Shown one piece after another: positions 4,736 to 13,250 of a DNA stretch of 23,817 bases (position 1 is its first letter; each line of letters begins with the position of its first letter). The notes beneath the pieces were generated by a model. That model was not told where the DNA came from. It did not search any database and saw nothing but the letters and a program-made list of their open reading frames with translations. The stretch spans positions 1 to 23,817 of the forward strand of contig NZ_AGFG01000016.1 in the NCBI RefSeq assembly GCF_000226255.1, read 5' to 3'. Origin of the DNA: Desulfovibrio sp. A2 (GTDB taxonomy: Bacteria; Desulfobacterota; Desulfovibrionia; Desulfovibrionales; Desulfovibrionaceae). Position numbers and translations under genes: made by a program.

Positions 4736-5011
4736 ATGAACAAGAGCGAACTCATCAAGACGCTGTCCGAAGAGACGAACATCCCCATCGAGGAAGCCGC
4801 CATGGTCGTGAACACCTTCGTGGACAGCATGAAGGACGCGCTGACCGATGGCGACCGCGTGGAAATCCGCGGTTTCGGCAGCTTCAAGGTCAAGGACTAC
4901 GGCGGCTACTCCGGCCGCAACCCCAAGACCGGCGACATGGTCGTGGTCGAGCCCAAACGCCTGCCTTTCTTCCGCGCCGGGAAGGAACTGAAAGAATTCC
5001 TCAACGACTAG
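4736..5011 (+). CDS. HU/IHF family DNA-bending protein
   Basis: A 91-residue nucleoid-associated protein of the HU/IHF family, a dimer that binds and bends DNA. The N-terminal helical part (MNKSELIKTLSEET) is followed by the conserved RGFGSF strand and the beta-arm motif GRNPKTG, whose proline intercalates into DNA. The closing PFFRAGKELKEFLND matches the usual C-terminus. The length is typical. A strong ribosome-binding site GGAGG lies at 4727-4731, five bases before the ATG. The ending resembles IHF-beta (PHFKPGKEL-like), but in this lineage several HU paralogues exist, so I give no subunit symbol. The next reading frame begins 3 bases after the stop. Confidence 0.92.
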   Translation: MNKSELIKTLSEETNIPIEEAAMVVNTFVDSMKDALTDGDRVEIRGFGSFKVKDYGGYSGRNPKTGDMVVVEPKRLPFFRAGKELKEFLND

Positions 5012-5014
5012 GCG

Positions 5015-6208
5015 ATGATCCTGCGACCATCGCCTGACGGCACGGCGGCACGGGCTCTCCGTGCCGCCGCCCCGGCGCTTCGCCCGTTTCCGTTCCCCCA
5101 TTTCCAGCTTCGCCAGCCGCGCCCGCACGGGGTTGCGGCGTGGGTTGTCCGTTGCCTTGCGGCAACGGCGCTGTGCGTGCTGCTGGCCGCCTGTGCACGG
5201 CCTGATGGTGACGCCTCCGCAACGCGGGCGCACGTCGGCTCGCCCCCCGCGCCTTCCGGCCCGGCGGCTGGCACGGCCGCGCCCGCAACGGCAACGCCGC
5301 GCAGCCTGGCCGACTTCGCCCTGCTAGGGCAGGGCGCGCCCCTGCCCGCCGAGGACGCCGGCGTCCGGACCGACGCAGCGCAAGGCCCCGTGCTGCGCAT
5401 CCTGTACAACGCCAGCACCAGGGGCACGTTGCATCCCTGCCCCTCCTGAGGGGGCGGCACCTCTGGTGGGCTTGCCCGGCGGGCGAGCATGTTCAGACAG
5501 TGGCGCGGACAGGATGGCATTCCCACCCTGGTGCTGGCCGGGCCCGATGAATTTCCGGCCGACGTGGGCGAGGACGCCGAGGGCCGCCTGGCCCCCATGG
5601 TGCGCAAGGCCTACGATCTGCTGCGCGTGGACGACGGCTACCTTTCCGGCGCTGCCGCCGCCTGGTTCCGCGACCACGCGGGCGGCGCGCCCGCAGGATT
5701 CCGCGAAGTGGGCGGCCAACCCGCAACGCGCGTCCACGCCGTGGCCGGGCGCAAGGTGGCCGTGGTCTTCCTGCCCGCGCTGCCGAAGCCGTGGGAAGAC
5801 CCCACGCCCGCCCTGGCCGCGCAGGCCGTGCGGGCCGGGATTGCCGCGCAGGAGCGCGCGGACCTCGTCATCGGCGTGGCGGCATGGGGCGGACTTGGCG
5901 AACGGCGCTACCTGGCCGAACTGGGGCAGGCCTTCCACATCCTGCTCGGCGGGGGCATCGGCACCGGGTTCGACGGGGTCGTGGACGGCGCGGCACCTTC
6001 GCTGCTATGGTCCCGGCCAGACATGGAGGGCCGCAGCGTCAACGTGGTGGACGTGCTGGCCTGGCCCGAACGGGCGCAAGGACGCCCGCAGCCCCGGCAC
6101 TGGATCGTGGGCATGGATATTTCCGTCCGGCAGGTTCCCCTGAAGGACGCCGTGGAGCCGGACCCTGTCGTCGAGGCGGTCGTCGGCACGGTTCCCGCCG
6201 CGAGGTAG
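5015..6208 (+). CDS. Candidate selenocysteine-containing UshA-like lipoprotein (TGA at 5447 read as Sec)
   Basis: One frame, 397 residues if the in-frame TGA at 5447-5449 (residue 145) is decoded. The N-terminus has a hydrophobic stretch ending LLAAC (lipid-attachment Cys at residue 60), so the product should be an exported lipoprotein. After an Ala/Pro-rich linker comes LRILYNASTRGTLHPCPS, then the TGA, then GGGTSGGLARRASMF. From memory, relatives of UshA-type 5'-nucleotidases have a Cys-containing PCGC or PCxxC motif just before GGLARRAT, so Cys-Pro-Ser-TGA reads naturally as a CxxU redox or metal motif. The remainder (LVIGVAAWGG, ILLGGGIG) resembles a degenerate phosphoesterase fold lacking clear metal ligands; activity is unknown. 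Weak points: the only in-frame ATG (5015) gives an unusually long 45-residue start before the hydrophobic segment and has a poor ribosome-binding site. Alternatives are a nonsense-mutated pseudogene, or a separate 239-codon gene from ATG 5489. Confidence 0.65.
5043..5069 (+). repeat. Perfect 11-bp inverted repeat after the HU/IHF gene
   Basis: CGGCGGCACGG (5043-5053) pairs perfectly with CCGTGCCGCCG (5059-5069) around a 5-base loop GCTCT. It lies 32 bases after the HU/IHF stop and inside the presumed 5' end of the Sec lipoprotein frame. It could be an attenuating or terminating hairpin, although no T run follows. If so, it limits read-through into the next gene or means that gene's real start lies downstream. 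Confidence 0.5.
5447..5488 (+). promoter_or_regulatory. Candidate bacterial SECIS element (TGA plus hairpin)
   Basis: After the in-frame TGA (5447-5449) comes a hairpin: GCTTGCCC (5470-5477) pairs with GGGCGAGC (5481-5488) over 8 bp with one G-U pair, leaving the loop GGC (5478-5480). The loop begins 28 nt after the TGA and has G in its first two positions. Bacterial SECIS elements bound by SelB are known to have a short stem, a small loop with G in position 1 or 2, and about 16-37 nt from UGA to loop. All are met. GC-rich DNA forms hairpins by chance, so this supports but does not prove Sec decoding. Confidence 0.6.
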
Positions 6209-6259: not shown

Positions 6260-7108
6260 ATGAGCGGCAAGGCACGCACCGTACCCATACACAAGCTGCA
6301 CGGGTGCGGGAACGACTTCGTATTCATTGACAACCGGGCGCTGCGCCTGCCCCTGGCGGCCATGCCCGACTGGGCCCGCGCGGTGTGCCGCCGCGCCTTC
6401 GGCGTGGGGGCCGACGGCCTCGTCTTTCTGGACGAGACGCCGAAGGACCGCGAAGGCGACTACATCTGGCACTTCTACAACGCGGACGGCTCGCGCGCCG
6501 AGATGTGCGGCAACGCATCCCGCTGCGCGGCGCTCTTGGCCGTTGAACTGGGCTTTGCCGGGCCGAAGCACGTCTTCGGCACCGACGCCGGGCTCATCCG
6601 CGCAGAGGCCGACGTGGCGGCGGGGATGGCCAAGGTGGAACTGACCCCGCCGCGCGACCTGGCCCTGGGCATCGAACTGGATCTCGGCCAGGGCCGCGAG
6701 ATGGTGCACTTCGTGAACACCGGCGTGCCGCACGCCGTGGTGTTCCAGCGCGACGCCTCGGCCGTGGACGTGCGCACCCTTGGCGCGGCCCTGCGCCGCC
6801 ACGCGCACTTCGCCCCGGCCGGGACCAACGCCAACTTCGCGCAGGTCATCGACCGCAGGAACATCCATCTGCGCACCTTCGAGCGCGGGGTGGAGGACGA
6901 AACCTACGCCTGCGGCACCGGCGCGGCGGCGGGCGCGTTCATCGCCCATGCGCTGGGGCTTACCGAATCCACGGTGAATGTCAGGAGTTCCGGCGGCGAA
7001 ATCCTTGGCATATCCATCGAGGGCGGCTCGGTCTTCCTTTCCGGCAAGGCCGTGCGCGTCTTCTCGGGCGAAATGTTCCCGGAGGGGCTGGGGCTGGCCC
7101 TGGCGTAA
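6260..7108 (+). CDS. dapF: Diaminopimelate epimerase
   Basis: Converts LL- to meso-diaminopimelate for lysine and peptidoglycan synthesis, in the cytoplasm, without cofactor. The 282-residue length is normal. [11 protein letters not shown] near the N-terminus is the family signature. The two catalytic cysteines are visible: Cys83 in MCGNASRC and Cys218 in ACGTGAAAG. The first motif has Asn-Ala-Ser where many homologues have Asn-Gly-Ala or Asn-Gly-Ser, a mild variation next to the active site. The ATG at 6260 is preceded by AAGGAG (6246-6251) at good spacing. The gap from the upstream lipoprotein gene is 51 bases, and dapA follows after 131 bases, so the two dap genes probably share expression. 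Confidence 0.96.
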
Positions 7109-8643: not shown

Positions 8644-10953
8644 ATGCGCTTCAAGAGCATCTCCACGCAGATCACCGTCCTTACCGGCGGACTGGTCATC
8701 TTCTTCATGTGCGCGTTCGTGTTCATCGCGTCCAAGACCGCCTACGACGGCATGCTGCGCACCGAGACGGCCAACATGGCCCAGGTGGGGCAGCAGATAG
8801 AGAAGGTGGCGGAAGACTTCGTGACCGGCAACCTCACCGCCGTGCGCGGGCTTGCGCAGCAGAAGGCGCTGGCCAGCGGCGTGCTGTACGGCAGCGCCAG
8901 CCTGGTCATGAAGGACCAGTTGCAGCAGACCCTGAAGGGCAACCCCCACTACGCCGCCATCTACGCCTACGATGCCACGGGCAAGGTGCTTGCGGGCTAC
9001 ACGGCGGACGGCCAGGAGATATCCGGCAAGCCGCTGGAAATGCCCGAGGCGCTTGCCGCCACGGGCGCGGGCAAGGAATTCGTCGGCGCCACGCCCTTCA
9101 AGGGCCCCAAGGGCGACGTGCTGTTCGCCATCGCGGCACCGGTGCTCAACGTCATGGGGCAGTCGGGCGGCGGCATCGCCATCACCCTCAACTGGACGAG
9201 CTTCAGCGCCCGCTTCGTGGAAAGCGTGAAGTTCGGCCAGCAGGGCTACCCCTTCGTGCTCGACGCCAAGGGCAGGTTCATCTCGCACCCCAACAGGGAT
9301 CTGCTGTTCTCCGACGCGACGAAGTACGATTTCGTCCGCAACATCATGGCCCAGCAGACGACCCAGATCGAATACCCCTGGGACGGCAAGTCCAAGATCC
9401 TCGTCAGCCGCACCATGCCGCTCACGGGGTGGAAGATCTGCTCCTCCGCCTACGAGGACGACCTGGCCGGGGTGGCGCGCCAGCAGCGCATGCTGCTGGC
9501 GGTGGTGGGGCTTGTGGCCATCATCGCCCTTACCGGCTCCATCGTGCTGCTGACCCGACGCGTCATCCTTGGCCCCATGAACCGCATCCGCGACTTCTCG
9601 GGGCGCGTGGCCGGGGGCGACCTGCGCGCCGTCATGGAAGGCGCATACCGCTACGAACTGGACGACCTGGCCCGCTCCATCCAGTCCATGGTGGCGGACC
9701 TGAAGGAAAAGCTGGGCTTCTCGCAGAGCGTGCTGGAGGCCATGGTGGTGCCCGTGCTGATCGTGGACCGCGAGGAACGCACGGTGTTCACCAACAAGGC
9801 CTGCATGGACATGCTGGAAATCGACACCGATCCCAAGGCGCAGTACGGCCGCACCCTGGCCGAGGTGTTCTACAACGAGCCCGGCCGCAAGACCGCCGTG
9901 GGCCGGGCCATGAACGAGAAGACCAGCATCACCAACCTCGAGGTGATCATCACCGGCCACAAGGGCGGCAAGGTGGACGTGCTGGCCAACGTCACCTATC
10001 TGCAGGACCTGGACGGCAAGGTCATCGGCGGGTTCTGCCTGTACATCGACACCACCGAGATGAAGCGCCAGGCCGCCATCATCGCCCAGCAGAACGAACG
10101 CATCGCGCGGGCCTCGGCAGAGGCCGACGACGTGGCCTCGCAACTGGCCGCCGCCTCGGAAGAGCTTTCGGCGCAGATAGAGCAGTCCGCGCGCGGGTCG
10201 GACATCCAGCGCGAGCGCACGGCCGAGGCGGCCACCGCCATGGAGCAGATGAACGCCTCCGTGCTCGAGGTGGCCCGCAACGCCGGGGGCGCCGCCGAGA
10301 TGGCCGAAAAGGCCAAGACCCGCGCCCAGGAAGGGGCCGGGGTGGTGGACGGCTCGGTGCGCACCATCCAGCATGCCCATGAGCTTGCCTCGCACCTCAA
10401 GGCAGACATGGCCGAGTTGGGCACCCAGGCCCAGGGCATCGGCCAGATCATGAACGTCATCGCCGACATCGCCGACCAGACCAACCTGCTGGCGCTCAAC
10501 GCCGCCATCGAGGCGGCGCGGGCCGGGGACGCGGGGCGCGGCTTCGCCGTGGTGGCCGACGAGGTGCGCAAGCTGGCCGAAAAGACCATGACCGCCACCA
10601 ACGAGGTGGGCAGCGCCATCCGGGGCATTCAGGAAAGCGCGCGCAAGAACATCGACAACACCGAAAAGGCCACCGCCGCCATCGAGGAAGGCACGGGCAT
10701 GGCCCGCCGCTCGGGCGACGTGCTGCGCGAGATCGTGGGCCTTGTGGAAAGCACCGCCGACCAGGTGCGCTCCATCGCCACCGCCTCGGAACAGCAGTCT
10801 GCGGCCAGCGAGGAAATCAACCGCTCCACCGACGAGATCACCCGCATCGCCGCCGAAACGGCCGAGGCCATGCGCCACTCGTCGCAGGCGGTGGAGGACG
10901 TTTCGCGGCTGGCCTCGGATCTGAAGCGGATCATTGGTGATATGCGCAGCTAA
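8644..10953 (+). CDS. Methyl-accepting chemotaxis protein with periplasmic sensor, HAMP and PAS
   Basis: Transmembrane chemoreceptor of 769 residues that should signal through CheW/CheA. Order: membrane helix 1 (about 10-30), a ~250-residue periplasmic region with Cache-like features ([22 protein letters not shown]), membrane helix 2 (about 283-304), HAMP (about 305-355), a PAS domain (about 360-470, [19 protein letters not shown]), then the long methyl-accepting coiled coil. The highly conserved hairpin tip [20 protein letters not shown] is near residues 618-637. No C-terminal NWETF-type CheR/CheB tether is seen. The ATG at 8644 has GGGAG six bases upstream. The ligand cannot be read from the sequence; an internal PAS domain suggests an additional cytoplasmic, perhaps redox or small-molecule, input. 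It stands alone between terminators. Confidence 0.95.
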
Positions 10954-10990
10954 CGCTGCGTGGGGCGACATGCGCAGCTGACGCCGCGTG
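10942..10990 (+). repeat. Imperfect direct repeat spanning the chemoreceptor stop codon
   Basis: ATGCGCAGCTAACGCTGCGTG at 10942-10962 recurs as a copy with two changes at 10970-10990 (19 of 21 bases the same), a 28-base period. The first copy holds the final Met-Arg-Ser and TAA of the chemoreceptor. Confidence 0.7.
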
Positions 10991-11009
10991 TCGTACCGCA
11001 ACGACTTCG

Positions 11010-11045
11010 AGGGGGAGGAACCATGAAGTTCCTCCCCCTTCGTCA
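11010..11045 (+). terminator. Strong terminator between convergent genes
   Basis: AGGGGGAGGAAC (11010-11021) pairs with GTTCCTCCCCCT (11028-11039), a 12-bp perfect stem with loop CATGAA, followed by TCGTCATTTTG. It ends the chemoreceptor transcript and could also serve the convergent cyclase gene on the other strand. Confidence 0.85.
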
Positions 11046-11076
11046 TTTTGTAGTCAAAAGGCGGAGCCCGACCGGG

Positions 11077-11811
11077 TCACGGCACGAACGCCGTGACGGC
11101 CACCGGCGCGCCCGTGCCGCCGCACAGCGGCAGCGGGGCCAGCAAGACGTGCGCCCCGGTGGCGGGCAGGCCATCCAGCGCGGCCAGGCATTCCACCACC
11201 ACCGCCCCGGCGGCCAGGGCCATGCGATTGCACAAAAATTCTCCGTCGTCGGGGGCATCCACGCCGTGGGTGTCGATGCCGATGCCCCGCGCCCCGCGCG
11301 CGTGCACCAGCAGGTGCACCGCATCCGGCGTGAACGAGGGAAACCGCATGGGCGGCGCGGCTCCGGGCCCGGCGCGCAGCGCCCCCCACTGGATTCCCAT
11401 GAACCGTTCCGGCTCGTTCCACAGCCGGTGCCAGCCAGTGTTGCACACGAACAGGCAGCCGCGCGGAACCCGGCCGTTGGCCTCCTCCCACGCCAGCACG
11501 TCGTCCGGCGTGCAGCGCGCGCCGGGGTCCGCCGCCGCCCGCGCACGCAGGTCCAGCACGGCCAGCGGCAGCAGCAGCGGCCACGGGGCCGCCGCGCGCA
11601 CGTCCGCCCCGCCCGGCAGGAACGAGCCGGGCGCGTTGACGTGGGTGCCGCCGTGCTCCCCCATGGCGAAGGCGCGCAGATCGTAGCCGTCTTCTTCACG
11701 GCAGGCCATTTCCAGAAAGGTCACCGGCGGGTCGCCCGGCCAGCGCGGCATGCCCGCGCCTATGGGGTGACTCAGGTCCGCCAGGCGGGTGAAGGTCAGG
11801 CCGTGGGGCAT
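11077..11811 (-). CDS. Cyclase-family (kynurenine formamidase-like) metal hydrolase
   Basis: A 244-residue protein of the cyclase / arylformamidase family. Family marks are DLSHPIGAGMPRWPGDPP at the start, HGGTHVNAPGSF (His53, His57, Asn59) and GIDTHGVDAPDD. Most members bind a divalent metal through HxxxHxD and a further His; here Asp is replaced by Asn (residue 59) and the usual following His is Gly or Ser, so metal binding may differ or belong to a subgroup with a different reaction. No tryptophan-degradation genes are nearby. The ATG at 11811 is preceded on its strand by a GGGGGGA run. Its start overlaps the end of aspA by 16 bases, so it is translated with aspA; a link to aspartate or amide metabolism is only inference. 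Confidence 0.85.
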   Translation of the reverse strand: MPHGLTFTRLADLSHPIGAGMPRWPGDPPVTFLEMACREEDGYDLRAFAMGEHGGTHVNAPGSFLPGGADVRAAAPWPLLLPLAVLDLRARAAADPGARCTPDDVLAWEEANGRVPRGCLFVCNTGWHRLWNEPERFMGIQWGALRAGPGAAPPMRFPSFTPDAVHLLVHARGARGIGIDTHGVDAPDDGEFLCNRMALAAGAVVVECLAALDGLPATGAHVLLAPLPLCGGTGAPVAVTAFVP

Positions 11812-13250
11812 GCGTCCCCCCCGCCCTGTTCGTTCGTGCCGTGCCGGTGGCCGCGCACGTCGCGCGGACCCAGCATCTTGGCCGGGTCCATCAGGTCGTC
11901 GTATTCCTCCGGCCACATCAGGCCGCGCTCCACAAGCAGGTCGCGCGGCGTGCGCCCGGTGGCGCGGGCATCCTTGACCACGGCGGCCGCCGCCTCGTAG
12001 CCGATGACCGGGGCCAGCGCCGTGACCATGCCCAGCGAGCCGTGCAGCAATTCCAGGCAGCGTTCGCGGTTGGCGGTAATGCCCTCCACGCAGCGCATCC
12101 GCAAGATGCGCGCAGCGCGCGTCAGGATTTCCAGCGACTGGAACAGGTTGCAGGCCATGATGGGGCCGAACACGTTCAGTTCCAACTGCCCCGCCTCCGC
12201 CGCGAGGGTCACCGTAAGATCGTTGCCGATGACCTGCTGGCAGACCTGGTTGACCAGTTCCGGAATCACCGGGTTGACCTTGCCGGGCATGATGCTGGAG
12301 CCCGGCTGCACGGCGGGCAGGGATATCTCGCCAAGGCCGGTGAACGGCCCGGACGACAGCAGCCGCAGGTCGTTGCATATCTTGGAAAGCTTCACGGCCA
12401 CGCGCTTGAGCAGGCCGGACAGGGTGACGTAGGCCCCCGCGTCGCTGGTGGCCTCCACCAGGTTGGGCGAAAGGGACAGCGGCAGCCCGGTGATGTCCGC
12501 CAGCCGGTCGCAGACCAGCGGCGCGTAGCCGGGCACGGTGTTGATGCCGGTGCCCACGGCCGTGGCCCCTATGTTCACCTCGCACAGCAGGCGGGTCACC
12601 TCGGTCAGGCGCTCGGTGTCCTCGCCCACGGTCACCCCGTAGGCCGCGAATTCCGCGCCCAGGGTGATGGGCACGGCGTCCTGCAACTGGGTGCGGGCCA
12701 TCTTGATGACGTCGGCGAAAGCCTCGCCTTTGGCATGGAAGGCGTCGCGCAGTTCGCGCAGCGCGCCGCCAAGGTCGCGCGCGTACCACACCAGCGCAAT
12801 GCGCAACGCCGTGGGGTACACGTCGTTGGTGGACTGCGAGAGGTTGACGTGGTTCAGCGGGCTGACCACGCCGTACTCGCCGCGCGCATGGCCCAGGAGC
12901 TCCAGCGCGCGGTTGGCGATGACCTCGTTGGCGTTCATGTTCACCGAGGTGCCCGCCCCGCCCTGGATCACGTCCACCACGAACTGGTCGTCGAAGCGAC
13001 CCGCGCGCACCTCGCGGCAGGCCTGCACGATGGCCTGCCCCACGCCGCCGTCCAGCAGGCCCAGTTCCATGTTGGCCAGTGCGGCGGCCTTCTTCACGGC
13101 GGCCAGCGCCTGCACGAAGCGAGGATGGCGGCCGATGGTCTGGCCGGTGACGTCGAAGTTCTCCAGCGCCCGCAGGGTCTGCACGCCGTAGTAGACGTGC
13201 GCGGGCACCTTGCGTTCGCCAAGGCTGTCGCGCTCGATGCGGTATTCCAT
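11796..13250 (-). CDS. aspA: Aspartate ammonia-lyase
   Basis: Reversibly deaminates aspartate to fumarate and ammonia; in sulfate reducers it feeds fumarate metabolism. The 484-residue protein starts MEYRIERDSLGERKVPAHVY, very close to AspA and unlike class II fumarase. The superfamily signature GSSIMPGKVNP (catalytic Ser loop) lies near residue 317, and SKICNDLRLLSSGP and GNDLTVTLAAEAGQLELN are AspA-like. The ATG at 13250 has AAGGA about 10 bases upstream; the frame continues upstream without family similarity. The C-terminus carries an extra polar tail (HRHGTNEQGGGDACPTA) that overlaps the next gene's start. A cluster of GGACCA half-sites lies 100-230 bases upstream (see repeats). Confidence 0.93.
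   Translation of the reverse strand: MEYRIERDSLGERKVPAHVYYGVQTLRALENFDVTGQTIGRHPRFVQALAAVKKAAALANMELGLLDGGVGQAIVQACREVRAGRFDDQFVVDVIQGGAGTSVNMNANEVIANRALELLGHARGEYGVVSPLNHVNLSQSTNDVYPTALRIALVWYARDLGGALRELRDAFHAKGEAFADVIKMARTQLQDAVPITLGAEFAAYGVTVGEDTERLTEVTRLLCEVNIGATAVGTGINTVPGYAPLVCDRLADITGLPLSLSPNLVEATSDAGAYVTLSGLLKRVAVKLSKICNDLRLLSSGPFTGLGEISLPAVQPGSSIMPGKVNPVIPELVNQVCQQVIGNDLTVTLAAEAGQLELNVFGPIMACNLFQSLEILTRAARILRMRCVEGITANRERCLELLHGSLGMVTALAPVIGYEAAAAVVKDARATGRTPRDLLVERGLMWPEEYDDLMDPAKMLGPRDVRGHRHGTNEQGGGDACPTA

Follow-up and report, generated by a model that had tools for sequence, protein, structure and literature searches.

A predicted selenocysteine-containing member of UshA-like (seleno)protein family 2 beside ihfB in Desulfovibrio sp. 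A2

Selenoproteins with a UshA-like domain have been catalogued before. A related UshA-like CxU selenoprotein family from ocean metagenomes was already published in 2008 (PMC2398784), and a 2026 review places NF049981, the NCBIfam "UshA-like (seleno)protein family 2", among the CxxU selenoprotein families taken from GenBank annotation (PMC13188914). That review was the sole paper found in a literature search by accession, and our literature searches found no functional study of NF049981. For Desulfovibrio vulgaris, an older table holds eight selenoproteins and, as far as the available part of that source goes, does not include a UshA-like one (PMC1794560). Here we report on a gene in a 23,817 nucleotide stretch of the sulfate reducer Desulfovibrio sp. 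A2 (contig NZ_AGFG01000016.1, positions 1 to 23,817; hereafter the window), for which a preliminary description had proposed a selenoprotein with a CxxU motif, U being selenocysteine (Sec). It had also suggested that a degenerate envelope phosphoesterase with Sec would be new. This claim to novelty fails, as the curated model is itself named a (seleno)protein family and is listed in the review, and the related family was in print long before.

The gene (Table 1) is a single forward-strand frame whose sole interruption is the TGA at codon 145, and the coordinates previously given for two in-register frames parted by one TGA were exact. When the TGA is read through as Sec145, the product has 397 residues, from the ATG at 5015 to a final TAG at 6206-6208, and carries PCPSU-GGGTSGGLARRA at the UGA. 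Its score for NF049981 was 228.9 bits, or 221.5 bits when the genome was searched, where the cut-off is 140, and the profile match extends across the UGA from residue 127 to residue 390. The family motif, CxxU or CxxC ahead of GG-x-x-R-R, is present as PCPSU-GGGTSGGLARR. By itself, an open frame of this length counts for little in GC-rich DNA. Judging from the profile match, the residues in the UGA column, the difference in hairpins between Sec and Cys genes, and the Sec machinery, the gene is almost certainly a family 2 member with its UGA predicted to be decoded as Sec, which upholds the selenoprotein originally proposed.

Relatives were gathered from best-scoring and hand-chosen loci, deduplicated and kept only if they scored more than 30 bits for the domain, and are not a random draw. 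Of the 93 distinct relatives, 78 have Sec in the UGA column and the other 15 have Cys, the two residues that had been expected there, and the partner Cys of the motif is kept in 90 of the 93 rows. Four same-genus relatives (L014, L085, L086 and L087), which were to be checked for other stops, keep the UGA and its flanks and contain no other in-frame stop. Differences between the window and L014 downstream of the UGA fall mostly in third codon positions (15/15/51 by codon position). On a 92-row tree (24 Cys), built with the Sec column included, the Sec/Cys state requires six changes, and at least three of these are forced by well-supported branches.

A bacterial Sec insertion sequence (bSECIS) is described in the review by a loop of 3-9 nt with a G in the first two places, a stem of 4-16 bp, a spacing of 16-37 nt and an energy of -7.5 kcal/mol or lower (PMC13188914). 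The hairpin downstream of the window UGA falls within all of these limits. In a 25-nt local fold, with the loop starting 29 nt past the UGA, a hairpin was found in 45 of 48 distinct family 2 Sec genes against 1 of 12 distinct Cys genes. A 48-nt fold placed it at the usual position in 39/48 Sec genes and 0/12 Cys genes, or in 42/48 and 2/12 when any hairpin within the limits was counted. The Sec exceptions in the 25-nt fold (L096, L098 and L118) have other loops closer to the UGA. In a further set of rows, small indels put the hairpin values of six Cys rows (L138, L139, L142, L143, L144 and L149) out of register, and their Cys was read from the sequences; in that set one further Sec gene, L127, is without a hairpin at the usual place. 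Protein constraint alone does not explain the contrast, because both groups encode GG-x-x-R-R at this position; among synonymous recodings of the window hairpin region, 49 of 5000 reached eight pairs. No Rfam family reached its gathering threshold anywhere in the window. When a 63-nt segment spanning the UGA was folded, the z-score of -1.44 was unremarkable; it is the comparison between genes that is informative, folding energy alone being uninformative. At L105-L110 the family is present as tandem Cys and Sec genes, side by side, and the L110 Cys gene, which adjoins a Sec paralogue, still has a SECIS-like hairpin, as after a recent Sec-to-Cys change.

The Sec machinery that was to be looked for in the source genome is all present: selB (354.6 bits), selA (613.6 bits) and selD (356.1 bits) are above their cut-offs, and tRNA-Sec scored 80.2 bits against a gathering score of 47. 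The selD gene (L010 406-1338) itself has one in-frame TGA, like known Sec-containing SelD. Named relatives put the window near Nitratidesulfovibrio, from which the taxonomic family and phylum meant below are inferred. Across 288 genomes of the same taxonomic family, NF049981 matched in 153 (150 over cut-off) and selA in 230 (227 over cut-off). Reading the two result lists together, 134 of the 153 genomes have a selA match and 19 have none. Ten of these 19 hold only stop-free copies, all Cys, and selB is over cut-off in 0/10; completeness is 92% or more for six of these ten genomes. The other nine keep a TGA copy. Seven of them have selB over cut-off and the remaining two (G546 and G647) have short selB-like pieces, for which reason the missing selA is probably an assembly loss. 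The rule is not strict, however: in G399, G400 and G401 Cys copies occur alongside both selA and selB, and in G502 a Cys copy is accompanied by selB and a weak match to selA. Since the gene persists in a Cys form in lineages that lack the Sec machinery, its chemistry appears to be improved, but not uniquely enabled, by selenium. NF049981 also matched 153 of 395 genomes drawn from the same phylum, six of them over cut-off. Many genomes of the genus coded g3 (e.g. G109, G076 and G427-G436) match selA and not NF049981; there the gene seems absent while the Sec machinery remains.

The window protein consists of a hydrophobic export segment with a lipobox, then a variable linker and, starting near residue 127, the domain. 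The lipoprotein-like N terminus noted earlier is thus recovered, and from its sequence the product would be exported and probably lipid-anchored. The domain is predicted to adopt the UshA/SoxB phosphoesterase fold, both the predicted structure and a fold search pointing to the phosphoesterase domain of UshA/5'-nucleotidase. The dimetal ligands of UshA, namely D, H, D, N, H, H, H and H, are not conserved: the corresponding window columns hold S, R, D, G, A, A, G and G, and non-ligands occupy most of these columns across 68 family 2 rows. This agrees with the degenerate UshA-like phosphoesterase first suggested. The Cys142-Sec145 pair comes after the loop that carries the first metal ligands in UshA. 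The 397 residues gave no Pfam match at E up to 1, to the C-terminal 5'-nucleotidase domain or any other, and neither SoxB (TIGR04486) nor UshA models were among the NCBIfam matches at E up to 1.

The best explanation of the whole, to which we give a probability of roughly 85%, is a Sec-containing family 2 member that would act as an envelope thiol/selenol oxidoreductase on a dead phosphoesterase scaffold. The redox part is drawn from the CxxU motif, the exchange of Sec and Cys, the lost metal-ligand columns, the lone Cys/Sec pair and the heme-bearing relatives. Past the export segment, Cys142 and Sec145 are the only Cys or Sec residues of the window protein besides Cys60 of the lipobox. Four CxxCH heme motifs follow the same domain in L034, L035, L036 and L044, and a cytochrome c-554-type model matches the C-terminal parts of both L034 and L030, behind the UshA-like domain (L030 has two CxxCH motifs and ends at a contig end). 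From the comparison between genes and genomes, the UGA would be read as Sec with the downstream hairpin and SelA, SelB, SelD and tRNA-Sec. In the former active-site pocket the selenolate may then attack a substrate that is a peroxide or contains oxidised sulfur or selenium, Cys142 would resolve the intermediate as a selenenylsulfide, and a periplasmic donor would re-reduce the pair. For this redox mechanism of Cys142-Sec145, taken on its own, the odds seem even. A wider picture is offered tentatively, in which a metal-less phosphoesterase scaffold was turned into a Sec-dependent envelope redox enzyme, the sister family working via attached multiheme cytochromes and family 2 being a stripped-down form with a separate donor.

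Were the UGA an ordinary stop, the locus would be a pseudogene, or would encode a short lipoprotein and a separate 239-residue protein from the ATG at 5489. The second half had been thought to lack a start of its own, yet this in-frame ATG exists, and the truncated database calls that had been foreseen do begin there (P0002, P0003, P0005 and P0006, from close relatives, 239-247 residues, starting at codon 159). Searches for homologous proteins returned 5 and 12 proteins, with truncated or Cys forms among those read, and one for related loci on genome contigs returned three loci. An ordinary stop would also suit the three distinct Sec rows without a hairpin at the usual place and the 6/48 without one within the limits in the 48-nt fold. 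Set against it are the presence of Sec or Cys in 93/93 relatives, the conservation of both flanks of the UGA, the hairpin contrast between Sec and Cys genes, and the stop-free Cys copies in genomes without selA and selB. Comparison of the UGA column, of the hairpins and of the sel genes led us to reject a plain stop or pseudogene, which we regard as extremely improbable.

Two other accounts concern what the protein does. The pair could be a metal or ligand site with no redox turnover, the degenerate domain then serving as a periplasmic sensor or binding protein whose target is a soft metal or a Se/S compound. The 2008 source counts the UshA-like family with those that lack a conserved Cys-based redox motif (PMC2398784). 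Retention of the fold after most of the enzyme's metal ligands have gone would likewise fit a binding role, as would Sec without the Cys in L040 and L042. However, Sec is costly as a plain ligand, the partner Cys is present in nearly all rows, and the sister family carries cytochrome modules, so that a binding site seems rather unlikely. It is more doubtful that the protein is still a hydrolase, whether a phosphoesterase or a SoxB-like thiosulfohydrolase, with Sec/Cys as metal ligand or nucleophile; the non-ligands at most metal-ligand columns and the Pfam and NCBIfam results speak against this. The Sec-dependent oxidoreductase that we prefer has points against it in turn. Sec is kept without the partner Cys in L040 and L042, and further Cys follow the motif in 40 of the 68 family 2 rows, so the pair is not always alone. 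The heme-bearing relatives are members of the sister family, not of family 2. The motif loop is modelled at low confidence (model residues 21-30, mean predicted local distance difference test score, pLDDT, of 63) and its geometry is uncertain. The start codon at 5015 is also uncertain and is the least certain part of the gene, because changes between relatives in the first 59 codons are spread about evenly over codon positions 1, 2 and 3 and because a strong hairpin (5043-5069), just 3' of ihfB, lies inside the first codons of the leader (0/200 shuffles of 5003-5100 fold as well). This hairpin may account for the leader seeming conserved at the DNA and not the protein level. The ATG lies about 40 residues upstream of the hydrophobic stretch and is the sole in-frame ATG, GTG or TTG ahead of the lipobox.

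Table 1. Positions of the gene, its elements and its neighbours in the window.
Feature	Position	Strand	Basis
Whole coding sequence, 397 residues, UGA as Sec145	5015..6208	+	Frame, translation, family profile match
Lipobox LAAC, residues 57-60, putative lipid-anchor signal by sequence only	5183..5194	+	Same motif in L014, L087
UshA-like domain, residues 127-390	5393..6184	+	NF049981 profile match, fold search
Cys142 codon TGC, Cys of CxxU	5438..5440	+	Sequence
TGA read as Sec145	5447..5449	+	Sec or Cys in 93/93 relatives
bSECIS-type hairpin, 8 bp stem, loop GGC, UGA-loop spacing 28 nt, -12.8 kcal/mol	5470..5488	+	Folding
Internal ATG, codon 159, start of truncated database entries	5489..5491	+	Database proteins
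ihfB-like gene, directly upstream, conserved neighbour	4736..5011	+	Neighbour analysis
dapF, downstream neighbour	6260..7108	+	TIGR00652, 233.8 bits

The gene order lnt-prfB-GGDEF-MinD-like-ihfB-[gene]-(dapF)-dapA is kept in outline. Of the 41 loci examined, 28 have ihfB and two more end before its position; the remaining 11 comprise four second Cys paralogues and seven distant relatives. The neighbouring genes at the examined loci gave no lead to function. The second, Cys-only paralogues at L114 and L117 adjoin genes with pilin-type N_methyl motifs, with a type II/IV secretion ATPase also at L114, and by eye L115 and L116 resemble this arrangement. Around the distant members L104, L119, L121 and L122, an HD/YfbR-like gene adjoins in 2/2 tested (L121, L122) and a CCG/4Fe-4S gene in 3/3 tested (L104, L119, L122). 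Near the distant family member at L124, adjacent frames of 191 and 810 residues (8792-11848, minus strand) resemble, on inspection by eye, a formate dehydrogenase divided in two by a Sec codon. Within the window, prfB (1542-2673) runs in frame from the ATG at 1542 to CTT TGA (1614-1619) after a G-rich stretch and continues in the +1 frame, presumably the well-known programmed frameshift of release factor 2 (RF2).

The window adds one member to a known selenoprotein family that gene callers can truncate. Its function would matter, this being an exported Sec protein, mostly at one conserved chromosomal place, with a phosphoesterase fold and no metal site. Compared with UshA and ecto-5'-nucleotidase (CD73), the window protein has lost most metal ligands, has no C-terminal substrate domain in its 397 residues, and has the Sec/Cys pair behind the first loop as a feature of its own. 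It differs from the SoxB thiosulfohydrolase in having no SoxB model match and, again, in the loss of most metal ligands. With NF041198, the UshA-like (seleno)protein with CxU (the COG0737 UshA-like family of PMC2398784), it shares the domain and the Sec/Cys column. However, the motif in that family is PCGU instead of PCPSU, some of its members have heme motifs behind the domain, and the window protein, at 17.5 bits, stays below its cut-off of 275; intermediates such as L038 match both models. The closest likeness is to family 2 itself, from which nothing marks it off: the score is over cut-off, and the CxxU motif and the Sec/Cys column are shared. Members from the window's genus have a lipobox and a long linker where most other members examined have an ordinary signal peptide.
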